Origin: Chryseobacterium angstadtii
GTDB taxonomy: Bacteria > Bacteroidota > Bacteroidia > Flavobacteriales > Weeksellaceae
Length of the DNA stretch: 64,000 nucleotides
Assembly (NCBI RefSeq): GCF_001045465.1
Contig: NZ_LFND01000002.1
Coordinates: 434,001-498,000, forward strand
Reading direction: 5' to 3'
Part shown: positions 45,462-54,001 of the stretch, piece by piece
How positions within the stretch are numbered: position 1 is the stretch's first letter
Layout: each line of letters begins with the position of its first letter
The notes under the pieces: generated by a model
What the model saw: the letters and a program-made list of their open reading frames with translations, nothing else
The model's database searches: none
Told to the model about the DNA's origin: nothing
Program-made: the position numbers and the translations under genes

Positions 45462-46772
45462 TTATTTTTGTCTGAAATACACTTCAATAGGAACTCCGGT
45501 GAAACCGAATTCTTTTCTCAGCTGGTTTTCAGTAAATCTTTTGTAGGGTTCTTTTACATACTGAGGCAGGTTGCAGAAAAATACAAACTGCGGAGACGGC
45601 GTCGGAAGCTGTACACAGTATTTAATTTTAATGTATTTTCCTTTGTTGGCCGGTGGCGGAGTCTGCTCGAAAATAGGAAGCATCACTTCATTTAATTTTG
45701 AAGTTTTGATCTTCTTCTTACGGTCTTCATATACTTCCATAGCCACCTCCACTGCTTTCAGGATTCTCTGTTTCGTTAGAGCTGATATAAAAAGAATTGG
45801 AATATCATGAAACTGCCCGATTTTATCTTTAATGGCTTTCTCAAAATCACGCATGGTGTTGGTTTGCTTGTCTTCCACAAGGTCCCATTTATTCACCAGG
45901 ATCACAATTCCTTTTCTGTTTTTCTGTGCCAGTCCGAAGATATTCATATCCTGAGATTCCCATCCCAGCGTAGCATCTACCATAACGATTACTACATCAG
46001 AATATTCGATGGAACGGATGGATCTCATTACAGAATAGAATTCCAAATCTTCATTTACTTTAGATTTTCTTCTCATTCCTGCGGTATCTACCAACACAAA
46101 CTCATGACCGAATTTATTGTAAAGCGTCTGAATACTGTCTCTTGTAGTTCCTGCAATATCAGTAACAATATTTCTTTCCACATCCAGCAAGGCATTCGTC
46201 AAAGTAGATTTCCCTACATTTGGACGTCCTGCAATGGTAATTTTAGGCAGACCCTCAAACGGATCTTTATATTCTGTTGTTGGAAAATCTTTAACGATAT
46301 CATCAAGAAGATCCCCGGTTCCTGAACCTGTGGCAGAAGAAAGAGTATAATATTTATCTATTCCTAACTGGTAGAATTCTGTAGCAGGAAGTTCCTCTTT
46401 TGAGGAATCCACTTTATTGATGACAATGTAGATCGGCTTATTTGATCTTCTCAGAAGACGGTAAATCTCGTAATCGGTATCGGTAAGACCTTCTTCCACA
46501 TTCATCATAAAAATAATGGATGTAGCTTCATCTACGGCCAGCTGAACCTGTTTGCGGATCTCTTCTTCAAAAATATCATCCGTTCCTACATCATATCCGC
46601 CGGTATCAATAACTGTAAAATCAACACCGTTCCAGTCAGATTTTCCATAATGACGGTCTCTTGTAACACCAGCCGTAGAATCTACGATGGCTTCTCTTCT
46701 TTCCAGTAAACGGTTAAAAAGTGTGGATTTTCCTACGTTGGGACGCCCAACGATTGCGACAATATTTGACAT
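45462..46772 (-). CDS. der: Ribosome biogenesis GTPase Der (EngA)
   Basis: 436 residues with two tandem G domains: GRPNVGKSTLFN (1) with DTGGYDVG, NKVDSS; and GRPNVGKSTLTN (about 182) with DTAGMRRK and NKWDLVED. A KH-like C-terminal domain closes the chain (GVPIEVYFRQK). It acts in 50S assembly and is normally essential. TATCTTTG lies upstream at 46835-46842. Confidence 0.97.
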   Translation of the reverse strand: MSNIVAIVGRPNVGKSTLFNRLLERREAIVDSTAGVTRDRHYGKSDWNGVDFTVIDTGGYDVGTDDIFEEEIRKQVQLAVDEATSIIFMMNVEEGLTDTDYEIYRLLRRSNKPIYIVINKVDSSKEELPATEFYQLGIDKYYTLSSATGSGTGDLLDDIVKDFPTTEYKDPFEGLPKITIAGRPNVGKSTLTNALLDVERNIVTDIAGTTRDSIQTLYNKFGHEFVLVDTAGMRRKSKVNEDLEFYSVMRSIRSIEYSDVVIVMVDATLGWESQDMNIFGLAQKNRKGIVILVNKWDLVEDKQTNTMRDFEKAIKDKIGQFHDIPILFISALTKQRILKAVEVAMEVYEDRKKKIKTSKLNEVMLPIFEQTPPPANKGKYIKIKYCVQLPTPSPQFVFFCNLPQYVKEPYKRFTENQLRKEFGFTGVPIEVYFRQK

Positions 46773-46834
46773 AAAAATGTTTAATAAATGAAATTATTAA
46801 TGGGTATCTCCAACTTTTGGAGCCCAATTTTTTG

Positions 46835-46842
46835 CAAAGATA
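46835..46842 (-). promoter_or_regulatory. TATCTTTG box of der
   Basis: On the minus strand TATCTTTG ends 62 bases before the der ATG, giving a longer leader than at most genes here. Confidence 0.4.
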
Positions 46843-47028
46843 AGGTTTTATTATTTAGATATTTAAAAAGTACTCGTTTTAAATAATTTCTGAATCAACA
46901 AAAGCCCAACCTATCAAATTAACAATCAAACCATTACAAATAAACGCGGTATTTCTTAATATTGATCTCGAAAAAATATTTTTTCTATTGAATAATTTTT
47001 ATAATTTTGCACCACCAAAAAATAAGGC

Positions 47029-47099
47029 AGACCTATAGTGTAACGGTAGCACTCCGGTTTTTGGTACCGTCAGTCGGGGTTCGAATCCCTGTGGGTCTA
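47029..47099 (+). tRNA. tRNA-Gln (anticodon TTG)
   Basis: Acceptor AGACCTA pairs with TGGGTCT (47092-47098; one G-T pair) and discriminator A at 47099. The anticodon loop is TTTTGGT with anticodon TTG, which reads CAA. The T arm has TTCGAAT between CGGGG and CCCTG, and the D arm GTAACGGTAGC is normal. No CCA is encoded, as usual in this phylum. A TAATTTTG box lies about 15 bases upstream. It is a single tRNA, followed by a terminator. Confidence 0.95.
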
Positions 47100-47106
47100 C
47101 ATAAAA

Positions 47107-47134
47107 AATAACCGCTTGAATTCAAGCGGTTATT
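47107..47134 (+). terminator. tRNA-Gln terminator
   Basis: A perfect 28-base palindrome with arms AATAACCGCTTGAA and TTCAAGCGGTTATT, followed by T-rich sequence. Confidence 0.85.
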
Positions 47135-47213
47135 TATTTTTCATCAAATGTGTTTTTAACTCTCCAGAATTTTTTTAAGCTTCCCAACCTGTCATAAAAA
47201 ATTCTATTGATTT

Positions 47214-47354
47214 CTAAAAAATATTATCCAGCGCCAAATAAATAATTATCGAAATAAGCGCTACATAAAAAATAAATTCAAATTTTTTCAGCTTTTTTAC
47301 TAATCTGCAATTTTTGTTAATTTTCTCCAATTCATCTTCCGTGTAATTTTCCAT
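47214..47354 (-). CDS. Putative 46-residue membrane microprotein
   Basis: A short frame with ATG at 47354 and TAG at 47214 reads MENYTEDELEKINKNC, then KKLKKFEF, then a hydrophobic helix (FIFYVALISIIIYLALDNIF). An acidic head, a basic cluster and one membrane helix at the C-terminus give a tail-anchored topology. The gap around it has no other gene. No family is recognised, and codon support is limited by size. Confidence 0.45.
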   Translation of the reverse strand: MENYTEDELEKINKNCRLVKKLKKFEFIFYVALISIIIYLALDNIF

Positions 47355-47652
47355 TTGTGTTGTGTTTTATTTTTCGAAATAATTAAGACAAAACTATATT
47401 ATGCAGCCATAAAAAACATCATCCGAAGCGCTACTTATTGTTAACTACAAATGAATAACACGTTAAAAAATAGTTAACAATAAATTCATAACAACCAACA
47501 AACCAGTTTATTATAATTTAAATTCAATATTTTAAATTAAACACGCTTTCATTGCAAAACGATTCAAAAAATAGAAAAGATTTTACAGATTATAGACAAA
47601 AACAACTAACAGGAAGTTTAGAAATTAAGAATTTTAATCATTGACATCTGAT

Positions 47653-48279
47653 TTAAATATTTTTTAAATACGTATTCAAATCTGATTCTTTCCCTATATC
47701 CATCTTGGTTTTTATTTTCGTTTTATACACCCTTGCACTACCCTCCGTAATATTTTCCAACAACGAAATTTCTTTGGACGACAACTCAAGCTTATAATAA
47801 ACACAAAACTTCAGCTCATTATTGGTTAAAGAAGGAAATCTTTCAGAGAGCTTTTGAATAAACTGTCTATTCTCCAGAGAACTTTCATTAATAAGGTCAT
47901 AATTCTTCTTATCAATCTGGATCAGATTATTGATTTTAAGAAAAAGATCAGTAATCATCTGTTCTGCATCAATATTCTTAGATTTTTTCATCTTCCTGAT
48001 ATTTTCCAGAAAGGTTTTTTCGGTTTCTATTTTCAGATTAAGATTAAGATGCAGATTGGTAATCTTTTCTTCCTGACGCTTTAAATCCTGTTCCAGAATC
48101 TTCTTATTTTTTGTCAGGATAATCTTCTCTTTCTCTACAATCTCCTTCTCTTTTTTACTGATATTCTTTATAATACAAATGATAATTCCAAAAATGAAAA
48201 CTACGACACACACCGCGATAAGCATTAATGTGTTTTTTAATTTCTGGCTGGCTATTTTTTCTTTATGCTTCTTGATCAA
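47653..48279 (-). CDS. Membrane-anchored coiled-coil HTH protein, C-part of a split regulator
   Basis: 208 residues from a TTG at 48279. Helix 15-39 (NTLMLIAVCVVVFIFGIIICII) spans the membrane, a coiled coil follows (KKEKEIVEKEKIIL and EQDLKRQEEKITNL), and the last 65 residues are a LuxR-type HTH (FPSLTNNELKFCVYYKLELSSKEISLL, SARVYKTKIKTKM). It overlaps the TPR gene by 17 bases. Deleting one A of the AAAA run in the overlap would fuse both into a TPR-membrane-coil-HTH chain, a common regulator type in Flavobacteriales. So this is probably half of one gene. Confidence 0.8.
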   Translation of the reverse strand: MIKKHKEKIASQKLKNTLMLIAVCVVVFIFGIIICIIKNISKKEKEIVEKEKIILTKNKKILEQDLKRQEEKITNLHLNLNLKIETEKTFLENIRKMKKSKNIDAEQMITDLFLKINNLIQIDKKNYDLINESSLENRQFIQKLSERFPSLTNNELKFCVYYKLELSSKEISLLENITEGSARVYKTKIKTKMDIGKESDLNTYLKNI

Positions 48280-49402
48280 CGCTTTTGATAATAAAGCTAT
48301 TTAAGGTATCAGAAATGTACATCAGCTTATCATTTGTTTTCTCATTACTCTGGTCTCGTAATAATTTCAATTTTTTACATAACCCCTTCACCCCTGTATT
48401 ATTATTCATTTTCAATTCATAGGATTGAAGCATCTCATTAATCTGAATTTTATCTTGAATATCAGTTGTTTTACCTTCCAGAAACAGTCCATAATTAATC
48501 ATTTCTTTCATTTTATCATTCTCATTAGTTTCGTTATAAAGATCAAACTGCCTTTCCATATTCATCACAGCCAAATGATAAAACTCTACTTTCCCTTTAT
48601 AATAATTCATTTCCTCCTTCATAAGCAACTCTGCCTCAGCATATTTCTTACTCTGATAATAATAAAACCCTAGATTTCCTTTTACACTTACAAAGAAGTC
48701 TTCCTCTTCCGCAGTCATATCTTTTATCTGCTCTAGTATCACAATTGCTTTTTTCGTTTCTTCAGTTGCAAGATTAAGGTTTCCCATTTTTTCATATGAA
48801 AGACCAAAGTTATTATGCATGGAAGCAATATAAAGAAGGTTTTTACGGTCTTTAGGGAGATTTTGCAAGCATTTATTAAAGTAAAAAAGGGCTTGTTTAT
48901 ATTGTTTTTCATTGTAATAAATCCTTCCCTTCAGGTGATAAAGGTGAGGCAGAAAATATTTCTGACCATCTTTATCATCTAATTTAATAGCTTCATTAAG
49001 AAACTGCATCGACAGTTTGGGAGATCTGTGTTCGAACTGATGAGCCAAATTGAAATTACAGGCAATGCTGATATAATCATATTCATTATTATTCAAAATC
49101 AGTAATTCATAAACAACTGGGATTGTTTTGATTAAAAGTTCATCATCTTTACTGTCAGCATCATTAAAAAGTTCTACATACTTACTGCTTATCAGAAATT
49201 TACGATCATTAGTTTCTCTGTTCTTTTCTAATTCTCTGTTCTTTAAAGCAATAATTTTTTCAGGCCGATGCCTTACTGCAGCAGCCTCATGACCAATTTT
49301 ATCAAAGTAGTGATTGGCCTCATCTTTAGTCGAACTGCTACAAGAAATAATATTTAATATTAAGAGTAAAACAGCTAAAATTTTAATAACATCTTTTTTC
49401 AT
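48263..49402 (-). CDS. TPR lipoprotein-like protein, N-part of a split regulator
   Basis: 379 residues from the ATG at 49402 (a TTG just upstream is less likely). A signal peptide leads to a lipobox-like ISCSSS. Four or more TPR units follow (LYHLKGRIYYNEKQYKQALFYFNKCLQ, SMHNNFGLSYEKMGNLNLATEETKKAI, VKGNLGFYYYQSKKYAEAELL). It lacks its own output domain. The next frame, with a membrane helix and HTH, starts inside its end. A lipobox on a chain that would continue into the membrane is unusual, so the Cys may not be lipidated. Confidence 0.82.
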   Translation of the reverse strand: MKKDVIKILAVLLLILNIISCSSSTKDEANHYFDKIGHEAAAVRHRPEKIIALKNRELEKNRETNDRKFLISSKYVELFNDADSKDDELLIKTIPVVYELLILNNNEYDYISIACNFNLAHQFEHRSPKLSMQFLNEAIKLDDKDGQKYFLPHLYHLKGRIYYNEKQYKQALFYFNKCLQNLPKDRKNLLYIASMHNNFGLSYEKMGNLNLATEETKKAIVILEQIKDMTAEEEDFFVSVKGNLGFYYYQSKKYAEAELLMKEEMNYYKGKVEFYHLAVMNMERQFDLYNETNENDKMKEMINYGLFLEGKTTDIQDKIQINEMLQSYELKMNNNTGVKGLCKKLKLLRDQSNEKTNDKLMYISDTLNSFIIKSVDQEA

Positions 49403-50150
49403 CAATTCATTTTTTTCATATTATTTCCAATCAAACAACAATAATATTCATATAAATATTTTTTTTTCGCATCATAATTAAATAATATTAACTAATATAT
49501 AATTGCTCTTTCAAAAATAGCGCCGAATTACCATTCTCTTATGCGTGACATTTTATTTATAAAAAATTAACACTAAAAAACATTATAAGTATTTAATAAT
49601 CAAATATTTAATACATTCAATTTTAACATTTTTTTTCACAAAAACATATATCACTAACAATCAGTTAACACCAACATTACACATTTTATGCTTCAGAAAA
49701 CTAATTTTGCCAAAGAATCTAGTTCAAAAACACAAATTTTCAGATTCAATCAAAACCCATATAAAAAAACCTTTTTAACGTATGAAAATTTATTTTACCA
49801 ATGCAGATCACTGTATCAACATCTATTTCAGATGACAAGCGCTCAGGTGGGAATAAGGACATTTCAATTAACCTTGTTCTGAAAGTATTTTCCTGAAATA
49901 AAAATACAGATACCCGATGATGAGAATGTTTTAAGACAGTGTACAGGACATTATTAACCAAGTTATTTTGACATATCCAAACACATCTCATCATTCCAGA
50001 TTCACAAATGACATAGTCATTTAAAACATATTATTTATTTACTATCAATATTCACCTTTAGCTAAGCACACCTATTTCCCTGTTTAGTTCTACTCTTACG
50101 CTTAGTTAAAGGTTTTTAAACCGCAAAACAATAAAAACCTATAATCTATT
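49403..50150. other. AT-rich gap before the HTH cassette
   Basis: About 750 bases. A 64-codon plus-strand frame at 49688 has no recognisable feature and I do not trust it. The part 50040-50150 upstream of the cassette contains AAAGGTTTTTAAACC, a short inverted repeat. Nothing else can be named. Confidence 0.45.
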
Positions 50151-50576
50151 TTGGTACATAATTTTAAGGAAATAAAAATAGGATCACTGATCAAACAAAA
50201 GGTTACGGAACTGGGTATTGAAATGACCCGAATCTGCAATTTCTTCACATGTACTGAAGAGGAAATAAAAAAAATGTATGAATCTGAAAACATTCAGACT
50301 GAAGCTCTTCTTCGTTGGAGTAAGCTTCTGGAATATGATTTTTTCAGAATTTACTCACATCATTTGATCTTATATGCTCCCCCGAGCTCTCATATCAAGG
50401 AGAAAAAAAAATCTCATCTCCCTGAGTTTAGAAAAAATGTTTATACCATTGAGATTATCAATTTTATCCTTGAATTACTGGAACAGGATAAAAAAACACG
50501 GGCCCAGATTATTGAAGAGTACAGAATCCCTAAGACAACCTTATATAAATGGATTAAAAAATATAAAAACAAATAG
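50151..50576 (+). CDS. HTH cassette gene 1: transposase-like HTH protein
   Basis: 141 residues with a TTG start at 50151 (VHNFKEIKIGSLIKQKVTEL); an ATG at codon 25 would cut a conserved-looking part. The first part is XRE-like (IGSLIKQKVTELGIEMTRICNFF, TEEEIKKMYES), and the C-terminal 40 residues form a transposase-type HTH (KKTRAQIIEEYRIPKTTLYKWIKKY). There is no DDE catalytic domain. I recall this type in many Chryseobacterium genomes, next to genes like the two that follow. Function unknown. Confidence 0.72.
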   Translation: MVHNFKEIKIGSLIKQKVTELGIEMTRICNFFTCTEEEIKKMYESENIQTEALLRWSKLLEYDFFRIYSHHLILYAPPSSHIKEKKKSHLPEFRKNVYTIEIINFILELLEQDKKTRAQIIEEYRIPKTTLYKWIKKYKNK

Positions 50577-50603
50577 TCTCTACAATGAATGATTAATACA
50601 CAA

Positions 50604-50834
50604 ATGATGAAAAAGAACAACCCACACTCAGAGTTGATAGGACTAACCAAAAAAGAACTGATTCTAAGATTCGGAGATGAATTTAATTTTTACCCGGATG
50701 ATCTCTGGATCTACCTTATCAACAAAAACTTTCTGGGAAAAAAAACTTTTCTTGTTGTCCTGTTTAAGGACAATATGGTAATTAATGTTAATATCACAAA
50801 AACATATGGAAAATTTAAAAAAACCGGATTATAA
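50604..50834 (+). CDS. HTH cassette gene 2: small SmpA-like protein
   Basis: 76 residues from the ATG at 50604 (an ATG at 50589 adds five residues). The pattern LIGLTKKELILRFGDEFNFYPDDLWIYLI, then GKKTFLVVLFKDNMV, resembles the SmpA/BLIP-like small fold (G-x-T-K-x-E, G-x-x-F, W-x-Y). No signal peptide. It lies 27 bases after gene 1, and gene 3 begins inside its last codons. Function unknown. Confidence 0.68.
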   Translation: MMKKNNPHSELIGLTKKELILRFGDEFNFYPDDLWIYLINKNFLGKKTFLVVLFKDNMVINVNITKTYGKFKKTGL

Positions 50835-51138
50835 AAGAATATACACTGATCTTCTGAGCCTGAAATTTCCTGAGAAGCAAAATTCCTGCGAACATATTCT
50901 ATCTAAAACAGAGCTTATGGTAAAAGATGTACTTCTTCTCAACAAGATTATTTTCCCACAGGATGACAAAAAAGATTTCAGTCTTAATCAGAAGCACCGT
51001 TCCTACGATAGAATTTCAATTATGGAAATATTGGATTATCAGAAGTGCCACCAGCTTAATAACAGTCAGCTGGCCAATCATTTCAAAATAAGCAGAAACA
51101 GTGTCACTAAATGGAAAAAACATTTTCAAAACAATTAG
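50806..51138 (+). CDS. HTH cassette gene 3: transposase-like HTH protein
   Basis: 110 residues from the ATG at 50806 (MENLKKPDYKRIYTDLLSLKFPEK), which overlaps gene 2 by 29 bases; the ATG at 50785 gives a longer but less typical start. The C-terminus is an HTH: HRSYDRISIMEILDYQKCHQL, NNSQLANHFKISRNSVTKWKKHF. Only one HTH and no catalytic residues, so it is not a working transposase. Overlap and order with genes 1 and 2 suggest translational coupling. Confidence 0.75.
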   Translation: MENLKKPDYKRIYTDLLSLKFPEKQNSCEHILSKTELMVKDVLLLNKIIFPQDDKKDFSLNQKHRSYDRISIMEILDYQKCHQLNNSQLANHFKISRNSVTKWKKHFQNN

Positions 51139-51334
51139 ATACCGGAGAAGATACCAAGTGTATTTTCCCTCTTTTTATAAGTTTATTTTATTCTTGTTTA
51201 TTTTTTTAGTTTAAAGGTCTGAAAAAGTTTTCTCTAAAAGCAGTGTCGATATGTTGGCTATACACTTTTCAAATTCTGTACATCCCCAGAATCGGCACCT
51301 ATCTGCTTTTCCCTATCAATGACTTTTAAGCAAA

Positions 51335-51362
51335 ACAGTCCCGGCCAAATGGCCGGGACTGT
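51335..51362. terminator. Strong hairpin after katG
   Basis: Thirteen-base arms AACAGTCCCGGCC and GGCCGGGACTGTT around AAAT. On the minus strand TTTTG follows. The 250 bases between the HTH cassette and katG hold nothing else that I can name. Confidence 0.85.
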
Positions 51363-51394
51363 TATTTATTTTATCGGATATTTTTATAACCTTT

Positions 51395-54001
<2,607 letters not shown>

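Follow-up and report, generated by a model that had tools for sequence, protein, structure and literature searches.

SinR/SinI-type systems and other local repressor pairs are small regulators encoded beside the adhesin or biofilm operons that they are thought to control. The locus described here, built around two genes designated A and C, resembles them in that regulator genes lie beside surface genes; the sequence relation is confined to the SinR-like fold of A, and control by A and C is putative. The N-terminal domain of A is related in both fold and sequence to stand-alone XRE-type regulators of the class Bacteroidia (cI/SinR/C-protein fold; proteins of 114-182 aa), whereas A additionally has a second helix-turn-helix (HTH), an acidic instead of a polar/basic reading helix, and a partner, C. 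The C-terminal HTHs of A and C show weak Pfam/NCBIfam likeness to those of IS3/IS481 OrfA proteins and resolvases, from which the pair differs by having no catalytic domain or longer frame, by the XRE-type N-terminus of A and by its conserved pairing. A third gene, P2, found between A and C in some copies, yields a model similar in fold to the BamE/SmpA lipoproteins and to the N-terminal domain of TpgA; in contrast to BamE/SmpA, P2 shows neither a signal peptide nor a lipobox by eye. No description of the A-C pair, or of the control of the tail-fibre-like secreted proteins of the Chryseobacterium group, was found among the titles and abstract openings returned by searches of the open-licence literature. 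Similar small HTH proteins in several Chryseobacterium genomes are presumably labelled 'transposase'. From the analysis below, A-C looks like a family of paired gene regulators without prior description and not like broken transposases.

Gene organization of the cassette

The window (the whole 64,000-nt stretch analysed) corresponds to positions 434001-498000 of contig C2 of the Chryseobacterium angstadtii genome (5.2 Mb, 11 contigs). The original prediction placed in it three small adjoining genes, two for HTH proteins without catalytic domains and one between them for an SmpA-like protein; an ORF check of the window found all three frames open and intact and confirmed their coordinates (Table 1). 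The register of the TTG start of A agrees with the starts of its paralogs. Of the two candidate starts of C the paralogs favor 50806, with which C overlaps P2 by 29 nt; the gap between A and P2 is 12 nt. HTH matches were the only ones obtained for A and C in Pfam/NCBIfam domain searches (sub-threshold in Pfam, at residues 105-139 of A and 77-109 of C), and no DDE, HUH or serine/tyrosine recombinase domain was reported in A, P2 or C, in agreement with the prediction. A search of solved structures with the sequence profiles of A, C and P2 gave nothing below E 0.16.

The likeness of the middle protein to SmpA held for its fold, at a moderate level, and not in Pfam, where P2 and its relatives gave no match, the SmpA/BamE model included. 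The P2 model (mean pLDDT 80, ten-row alignment) has the topology alpha-beta-beta-beta, and among the chains ranked highest by Foldseek the top VIA-align row is E. coli BamE (Z 6.3, rmsd 2.8, 64 aligned), with the TpgA domain at Z 5.4 (rmsd 3.5, 62 aligned); plain Foldseek returned no row at E <= 0.001. Z values at this level may reflect a common arrangement only, and 'SmpA-like' is likely a fair description of the predicted fold of P2, not of family membership.

Table 1. Features of the A-P2-C cassette and its surroundings in the window, and domain-bearing secreted neighbours at two other loci
Feature	Position	Strand	Description
Gene A	50151-50576	+	141 aa; XRE/cI-like N-terminal domain, C-terminal transposase-type HTH; TTG start
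Gene P2	50589-50834	+	81 aa; predicted BamE/SmpA-like fold; optional middle gene
Gene C	50806-51138	+	110 aa (117 aa from 50785); unique N-terminal region, C-terminal HTH
Cassette-bearing block	49531-51382	.	missing from colinear region of relative G021
Neighbouring TPR regulator	47653-49405	-	split, two overlapping ORFs in the window; recurrent neighbour class of A-C pairs
Phage tail Collar domain protein	L041 6852-7931		secreted neighbour
YadA_head repeat protein	L050 5660-7987		secreted neighbour

Domain composition of A and C

In the AlphaFold model of A (mean pLDDT 85, from a 61-row alignment), a five-helix N-terminal domain is followed by a separate C-terminal HTH. The former resembles cI, SinR and restriction-controller proteins, with probability 0.96-1.00 and E 0.11-0.24 in the top 20 Foldseek rows, and the Cro/C1-type model HTH_26 is matched by 6 of the 61 A members. 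The reading-helix region, residues 33-43, has a mean net charge of -2.3 over 63 A copies versus +1.2 in 20 stand-alone relatives, related sequences being taken as independent in this test; A does not show there the polar/basic DNA-reading helix 3 expected of XRE-family regulators. Residues 124-137, the second HTH, carry a net charge of +3.6. When paralogs from the same genome are compared, helix 3 is the least conserved helix (identity 0.34), and conservation is highest in helix 5 at 0.82, followed by the second recognition helix at 0.65 and helix 4 at 0.64; Y123, I125, P126, T129 and W133 are invariant in 63/63 copies. An acidic, least conserved helix 3 together with a basic, conserved second HTH suggests that the old reading helix of A has been given up, and these sequence features point to a move of DNA reading from helix 3 to the added HTH. 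The alignment between the C-terminal HTHs of A and C is weak (hhalign probability 38%, E 3e-4).

Pairing and distribution of A and C

The window's own genome contains ten matches to A, nine full-length and one N-terminal piece; the eight full-length paralogs are 52-60% identical to window A. There are nine matches to C, and by their coordinates each follows a full-length A on its own strand (9/9), with 15-379 nt between the matches. The frames holding these matches measure 82-203 aa (A) and 105-142 aa (C), and none in this genome is of transposase size. No longer frame with their domains occurs here. The two HTH proteins are not transposase fragments, a point on which the original prediction is borne out. 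Across 59 same-genus genomes, 381 A and 369 C matches were counted at E <= 1e-5 (Pearson r 0.96), with a median of six A matches over these 59 species; A and C are both present in 58 of them, and both are missing from the remaining one, G054. This co-occurrence is far beyond chance.

Individual copies were compared in two sets. The named loci are the best 80 of 484 candidates, so that this set leans towards the window's A; they come from Chryseobacterium, Epilithonimonas, Empedobacter, Soonwooa, Sphingobacterium athyrii and genus-less Flavobacteriaceae/Weeksellaceae records, and together with the nine own loci they make 89 loci with 96 A copies. In these, C follows on the same strand within 1 kb of 87 and within 6 kb of 89 of the 96 A copies, with none for 7, and the A-C spacing ranges from -5 to 4105 nt. 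The exhaustive set holds nine single-contig genomes (some, not all, of those in the sample) with 60 A matches, of which 54 full-length ones were kept and six decayed ones dropped; C lies within 1 kb of 45 of the 54, within 6 kb of one more, and is missing for 8. The six decayed matches, with several stops each, occur in three of the genomes, which suggests that pairs also get lost. Pairwise distances of A and C are correlated over the 89 pairs (r 0.47, against a maximum of 0.17 in 1000 permutations that again take related sequences as independent) and reach r 0.77 among the nine own pairs. Judged from these distances and positions, A and C appear to be inherited and duplicated mainly as pairs.

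The predicted three-gene system stood as a multi-gene unit of A followed by C, but not as a trio. P2 has one strong match in its own genome (itself) and one weak match (E 0.04), against nine full-length A-C pairs, and by profile a P2-type gene lies between A and C in 2 of the 54 exhaustive copies and in 1 of the 9 own pairs; in the named loci the longer A-C gaps often hold a P2 relative (ten were aligned) or small ORFs of two further kinds. A with C makes up the robust unit, and P2 is an optional insert. In a class-wide sample of 198 genomes, full-length A with C was found, among the candidates scored, in the own genome and one other genome of the same genus, and the N-terminal part of A alone (profile positions up to 121) in at least 23 others, in frames of 96-182 aa; 20 of these N-terminal matches are the stand-alone relatives used in the charge comparison above.

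Genes beside the A-C pairs

Sequence flanking the 96 A copies, 5 kb to either side (881 kb in all), was compared with 40 random 20-kb stretches from ten same-genus genomes (789 kb after removal of one A-C region), with ORFs of >= 60 aa from a simple caller. The foremost neighbour is a secreted family named after its 'QVGIN' motif, here a single-linkage cluster (E 1e-6, half coverage) that also takes in giant adhesin-like ORFs: 123 ORFs at 66 of the 89 loci versus 4 in the random stretches, a 24.5-fold density (pseudocount 0.5). Of its 129 placements, 86 precede A on the same strand. A second, small family of secreted proteins (QVAIGK...SVSLEF) occurs at 22 loci versus 0 random ORFs. One or the other lies upstream on the same strand within 5 kb of 64 of the 96 A copies, in 39 within 350 nt. 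In the exhaustive set, where stretches partly overlap because copies lie close together and a few neighbour genes are therefore counted twice, a 'QVGIN' gene is within 5 kb of 38 of the 54 A copies and missing near 16; either surface family is upstream on the same strand in 25 (16 within 350 nt) and not in 29. The surface-gene link is weaker in the exhaustive than in the named set.

The link is, moreover, one-sided. By coordinates, just 4 of the own genome's 27 'QVGIN' matches have an A copy within 5 kb, against 0.5 expected and with a profile that misses some subtypes, so most of the 'QVGIN' genes counted there lie away from any pair. Strong 'QVGIN' matches number at least nine per genome in the median of the 59 genomes and up to at least 33; with these lower bounds, A and 'QVGIN' counts correlate weakly, at rho 0.40 (partial 0.26 given genome size, p 0.04). 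G054, which has neither A nor C, also has no strong 'QVGIN' match, as a single case. The 'QVGIN' proteins of five loci (L022, L023, L024, L028 and L029) and of many named loci have a signal peptide, a QVGINT-like motif, tail-fibre-like repeats and varied ends. A domain scan of seven secreted neighbours gave one Collar and one YadA_head protein (Table 1), a single sub-threshold match in one more, and no match in four.

A pooled family of TPR and AraC regulators is another frequent neighbour (71 ORFs versus 12 random). Split by length, TPR-size members are strongly enriched (46 ORFs at 37 of the 89 loci versus 2 random, 16-fold); AraC-size ORFs are hardly enriched (14 versus 9, 1.3-fold), and members of other size number 11 versus 1. 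A TPR-size regulator is near 18 of the 54 exhaustive copies. The split regulator beside the window cassette, pointed out in the original prediction, belongs to this recurrent TPR class, and a regulatory role, which had been raised there as a possibility, is the best reading of A and C; no observation here favours DNA marking, the other possibility named there. As to the flanks, secreted surface genes and TPR regulators are enriched beside A-C pairs in general, but no surface gene lies beside the window copy. At two own loci other genes caught the eye: Vsr-like endonuclease and DNA-methyltransferase-like ORFs downstream of the pair at L024 (11706-13556), and a large serine-recombinase-like ORF adjoining the pair at L025 (7133-8863), all named by eye.

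A core pair and the search for a common operator

In 9/9 closed genomes one A-C pair adjoins a SulP-type permease gene (named by eye). These nine copies and the own copy L028, where the permease gene is in the opposite orientation, form one clade of ten in the FastTree trees of both A (support 0.94, 63 tips) and C (support 1.0, 54 tips); the trees include the core A of G045 despite an in-frame stop in the sequence that was read. The median dN/dS of the core pair is 0.048 for A and 0.056 for C, from the pairs with dS between 0 and 2.5 alone (23 of 37 for A and 14 of 45 for C). The family thus has a single ancient pair maintained by vertical descent, together with many copies subject to gain and loss. 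The approximately 600-nt intergenic region between the permease gene and the core A contains conserved blocks in all ten core copies, one of them around the palindrome TTTTAATTAAAA.

We could not find an operator common to the A-C pairs by comparing core blocks with 138 upstream regions, by dyads or by recurrent words. The core blocks score no better than shuffles upstream of the 138 other A copies. Dyads are enriched at 301-700 nt upstream of A, which probably reflects the coding sequence of the surface genes. A AAAAACACAAATGA-like word lies 57-163 nt upstream of A in several copies, at six loci, and ACACAAATG occurs exactly upstream of A in 15/150 copies; the AAAAACACAAATGA-like word partly coincides with start-codon context and may be either the start context of a small ORF or a site.

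The window copy and its relatives

The window cassette lies in the interval between katG and der (window 46772-51395), which was read in 20 same-genus relatives; 12 of the 20 stretches reach der, and none of the ORFs of >= 60 aa in the 20 matches A or C. Colinearity with G021 extends to window position 49530 and resumes at 51383; these points are about 185 nt apart in G021 versus 1,852 in the window, so the block was either gained in the window genome or lost in G021. We recognised no terminal inverted repeats or target duplication at the window copy. The upstream regulator is indeed split, as predicted: where the window has two overlapping ORFs, G021 has one ORF of 584 aa (L152 1017-2771), which shows TPR Pfam matches. 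The interval varies among relatives, to judge from seven of the stretches: several contain long ORFs that look RHS-like by eye, followed by small ones, and others a 'QVGIN' gene.

By motif, no 'QVGIN' or QVAIGK gene is present among the ORFs of the window. The window copy is therefore an isolated, intact pair with an optional P2, and the surface-gene link is invisible from the window alone. An AQVGI-like peptide in the ORF at 49688-49882, considered as the remnant of a decayed 'QVGIN' gene upstream of A, was not significant (best 1.0 bit).

Proposed roles of A and C

It is proposed that A and C bind DNA as dedicated partners and jointly regulate their own operon and neighbouring operons for secreted tail-fibre/adhesin-like surface proteins, a reading to which we give an even chance. 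The proposal builds on the observed pairing, co-divergence, selective constraint, domain make-up, helix charge and neighbourhood enrichment; DNA binding, formation of a complex, transcriptional control and the surface operons as targets are inferred. A would be derived from a stand-alone XRE-type repressor of Bacteroidia. The acidic former reading helix suggests that its N-terminal domain may now serve for contacts, whether within a dimer, with C or with polymerase, and DNA would be read by the added transposase-type HTH with its strongly conserved recognition helix. C, which has a similar HTH and a different N-terminal region, would supply the other half of the DNA contact or modulate A, the two probably working as a hetero-oligomer; P2, where present, would be an accessory protein. 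Several observations speak against joint regulation. The strongest are that no shared operator was found, that the core pair sits beside a permease gene and away from surface genes, and that many 'QVGIN' genes have no pair nearby; in addition, A and 'QVGIN' counts correlate weakly, AraC-size regulators are hardly enriched, C is missing within 6 kb for 8 of the 54 exhaustive A copies, and a similar HTH also occurs in transposases.

A more far-reaching version of this proposal, which we regard as quite unlikely, joins all A-C pairs of a genome into one cross-talking network in which specificity comes from the pairing of A with C and one or a few surface operons are on at a time. Within it, the strong conservation of the second reading helix of A would mean that all pairs read the same kind of site. 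If true, competition among paired regulators would provide antigenic or receptor variation (e.g. to escape phages) with no DNA rearrangement involved.

The alternative that survives best, although we consider it unlikely, is that A and C are accessory factors of recombination or nucleoid organisation, domesticated from a transposon, which promote the exchange or shuffling of surface genes and not their transcription. The transposase/resolvase-type HTH, the conservation of the second recognition helix across paralogs, the position of pairs at variable surface loci, young copies that differ between close relatives, and the decayed copies would all fit such a role. However, the most frequent neighbour families include no recurrent recombinase partner (one tyrosine-recombinase-like family occurs at 4 of the 89 loci), the core pair is inherited vertically and in most of the nine genomes has no surface genes beside it, and the N-terminal domain of A is of repressor type.

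A small two-gene unit with many copies, a patchy presence and an XRE fold such as many antitoxins have could also be a selfish or addiction module, either toxin-antitoxin-like or for superinfection control of a mobile element, but this is very unlikely: A and C each have an HTH of DNA-binding type, no toxin-like match was obtained for either, the known anti-phage defence models of PADLOC gave one weak match alone (A to the CARF model, E 0.028), and A had no match among 72,556 plasmid and 50,697 phage records, so that carriage on plasmids or phages was rejected as well. An origin of A and C as OrfA-like fragments left by an insertion sequence, or as a non-autonomous element, is extremely improbable and largely refuted: the weak IS3/IS481 HTH matches, the multiple copies and the block missing from G021 are outweighed by lengths and order that stay constant across dozens of diverged copies, the constraint on and orthology of the core pair, the divergence of the own paralogs, the XRE-derived N-terminus of A, and the lack of catalytic parts, of a longer frame in the own genome and of recognisable terminal repeats at the window copy.

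As regulators, A and C would correct the label 'transposase' that such proteins presumably carry. Standing beside many tail-fibre-like operons, the pairs would offer a direct handle on surface variation in the Chryseobacterium group. A would also be a clear case of regulator re-tooling, in which a repressor fold seems to yield DNA reading to an acquired transposase-type HTH.
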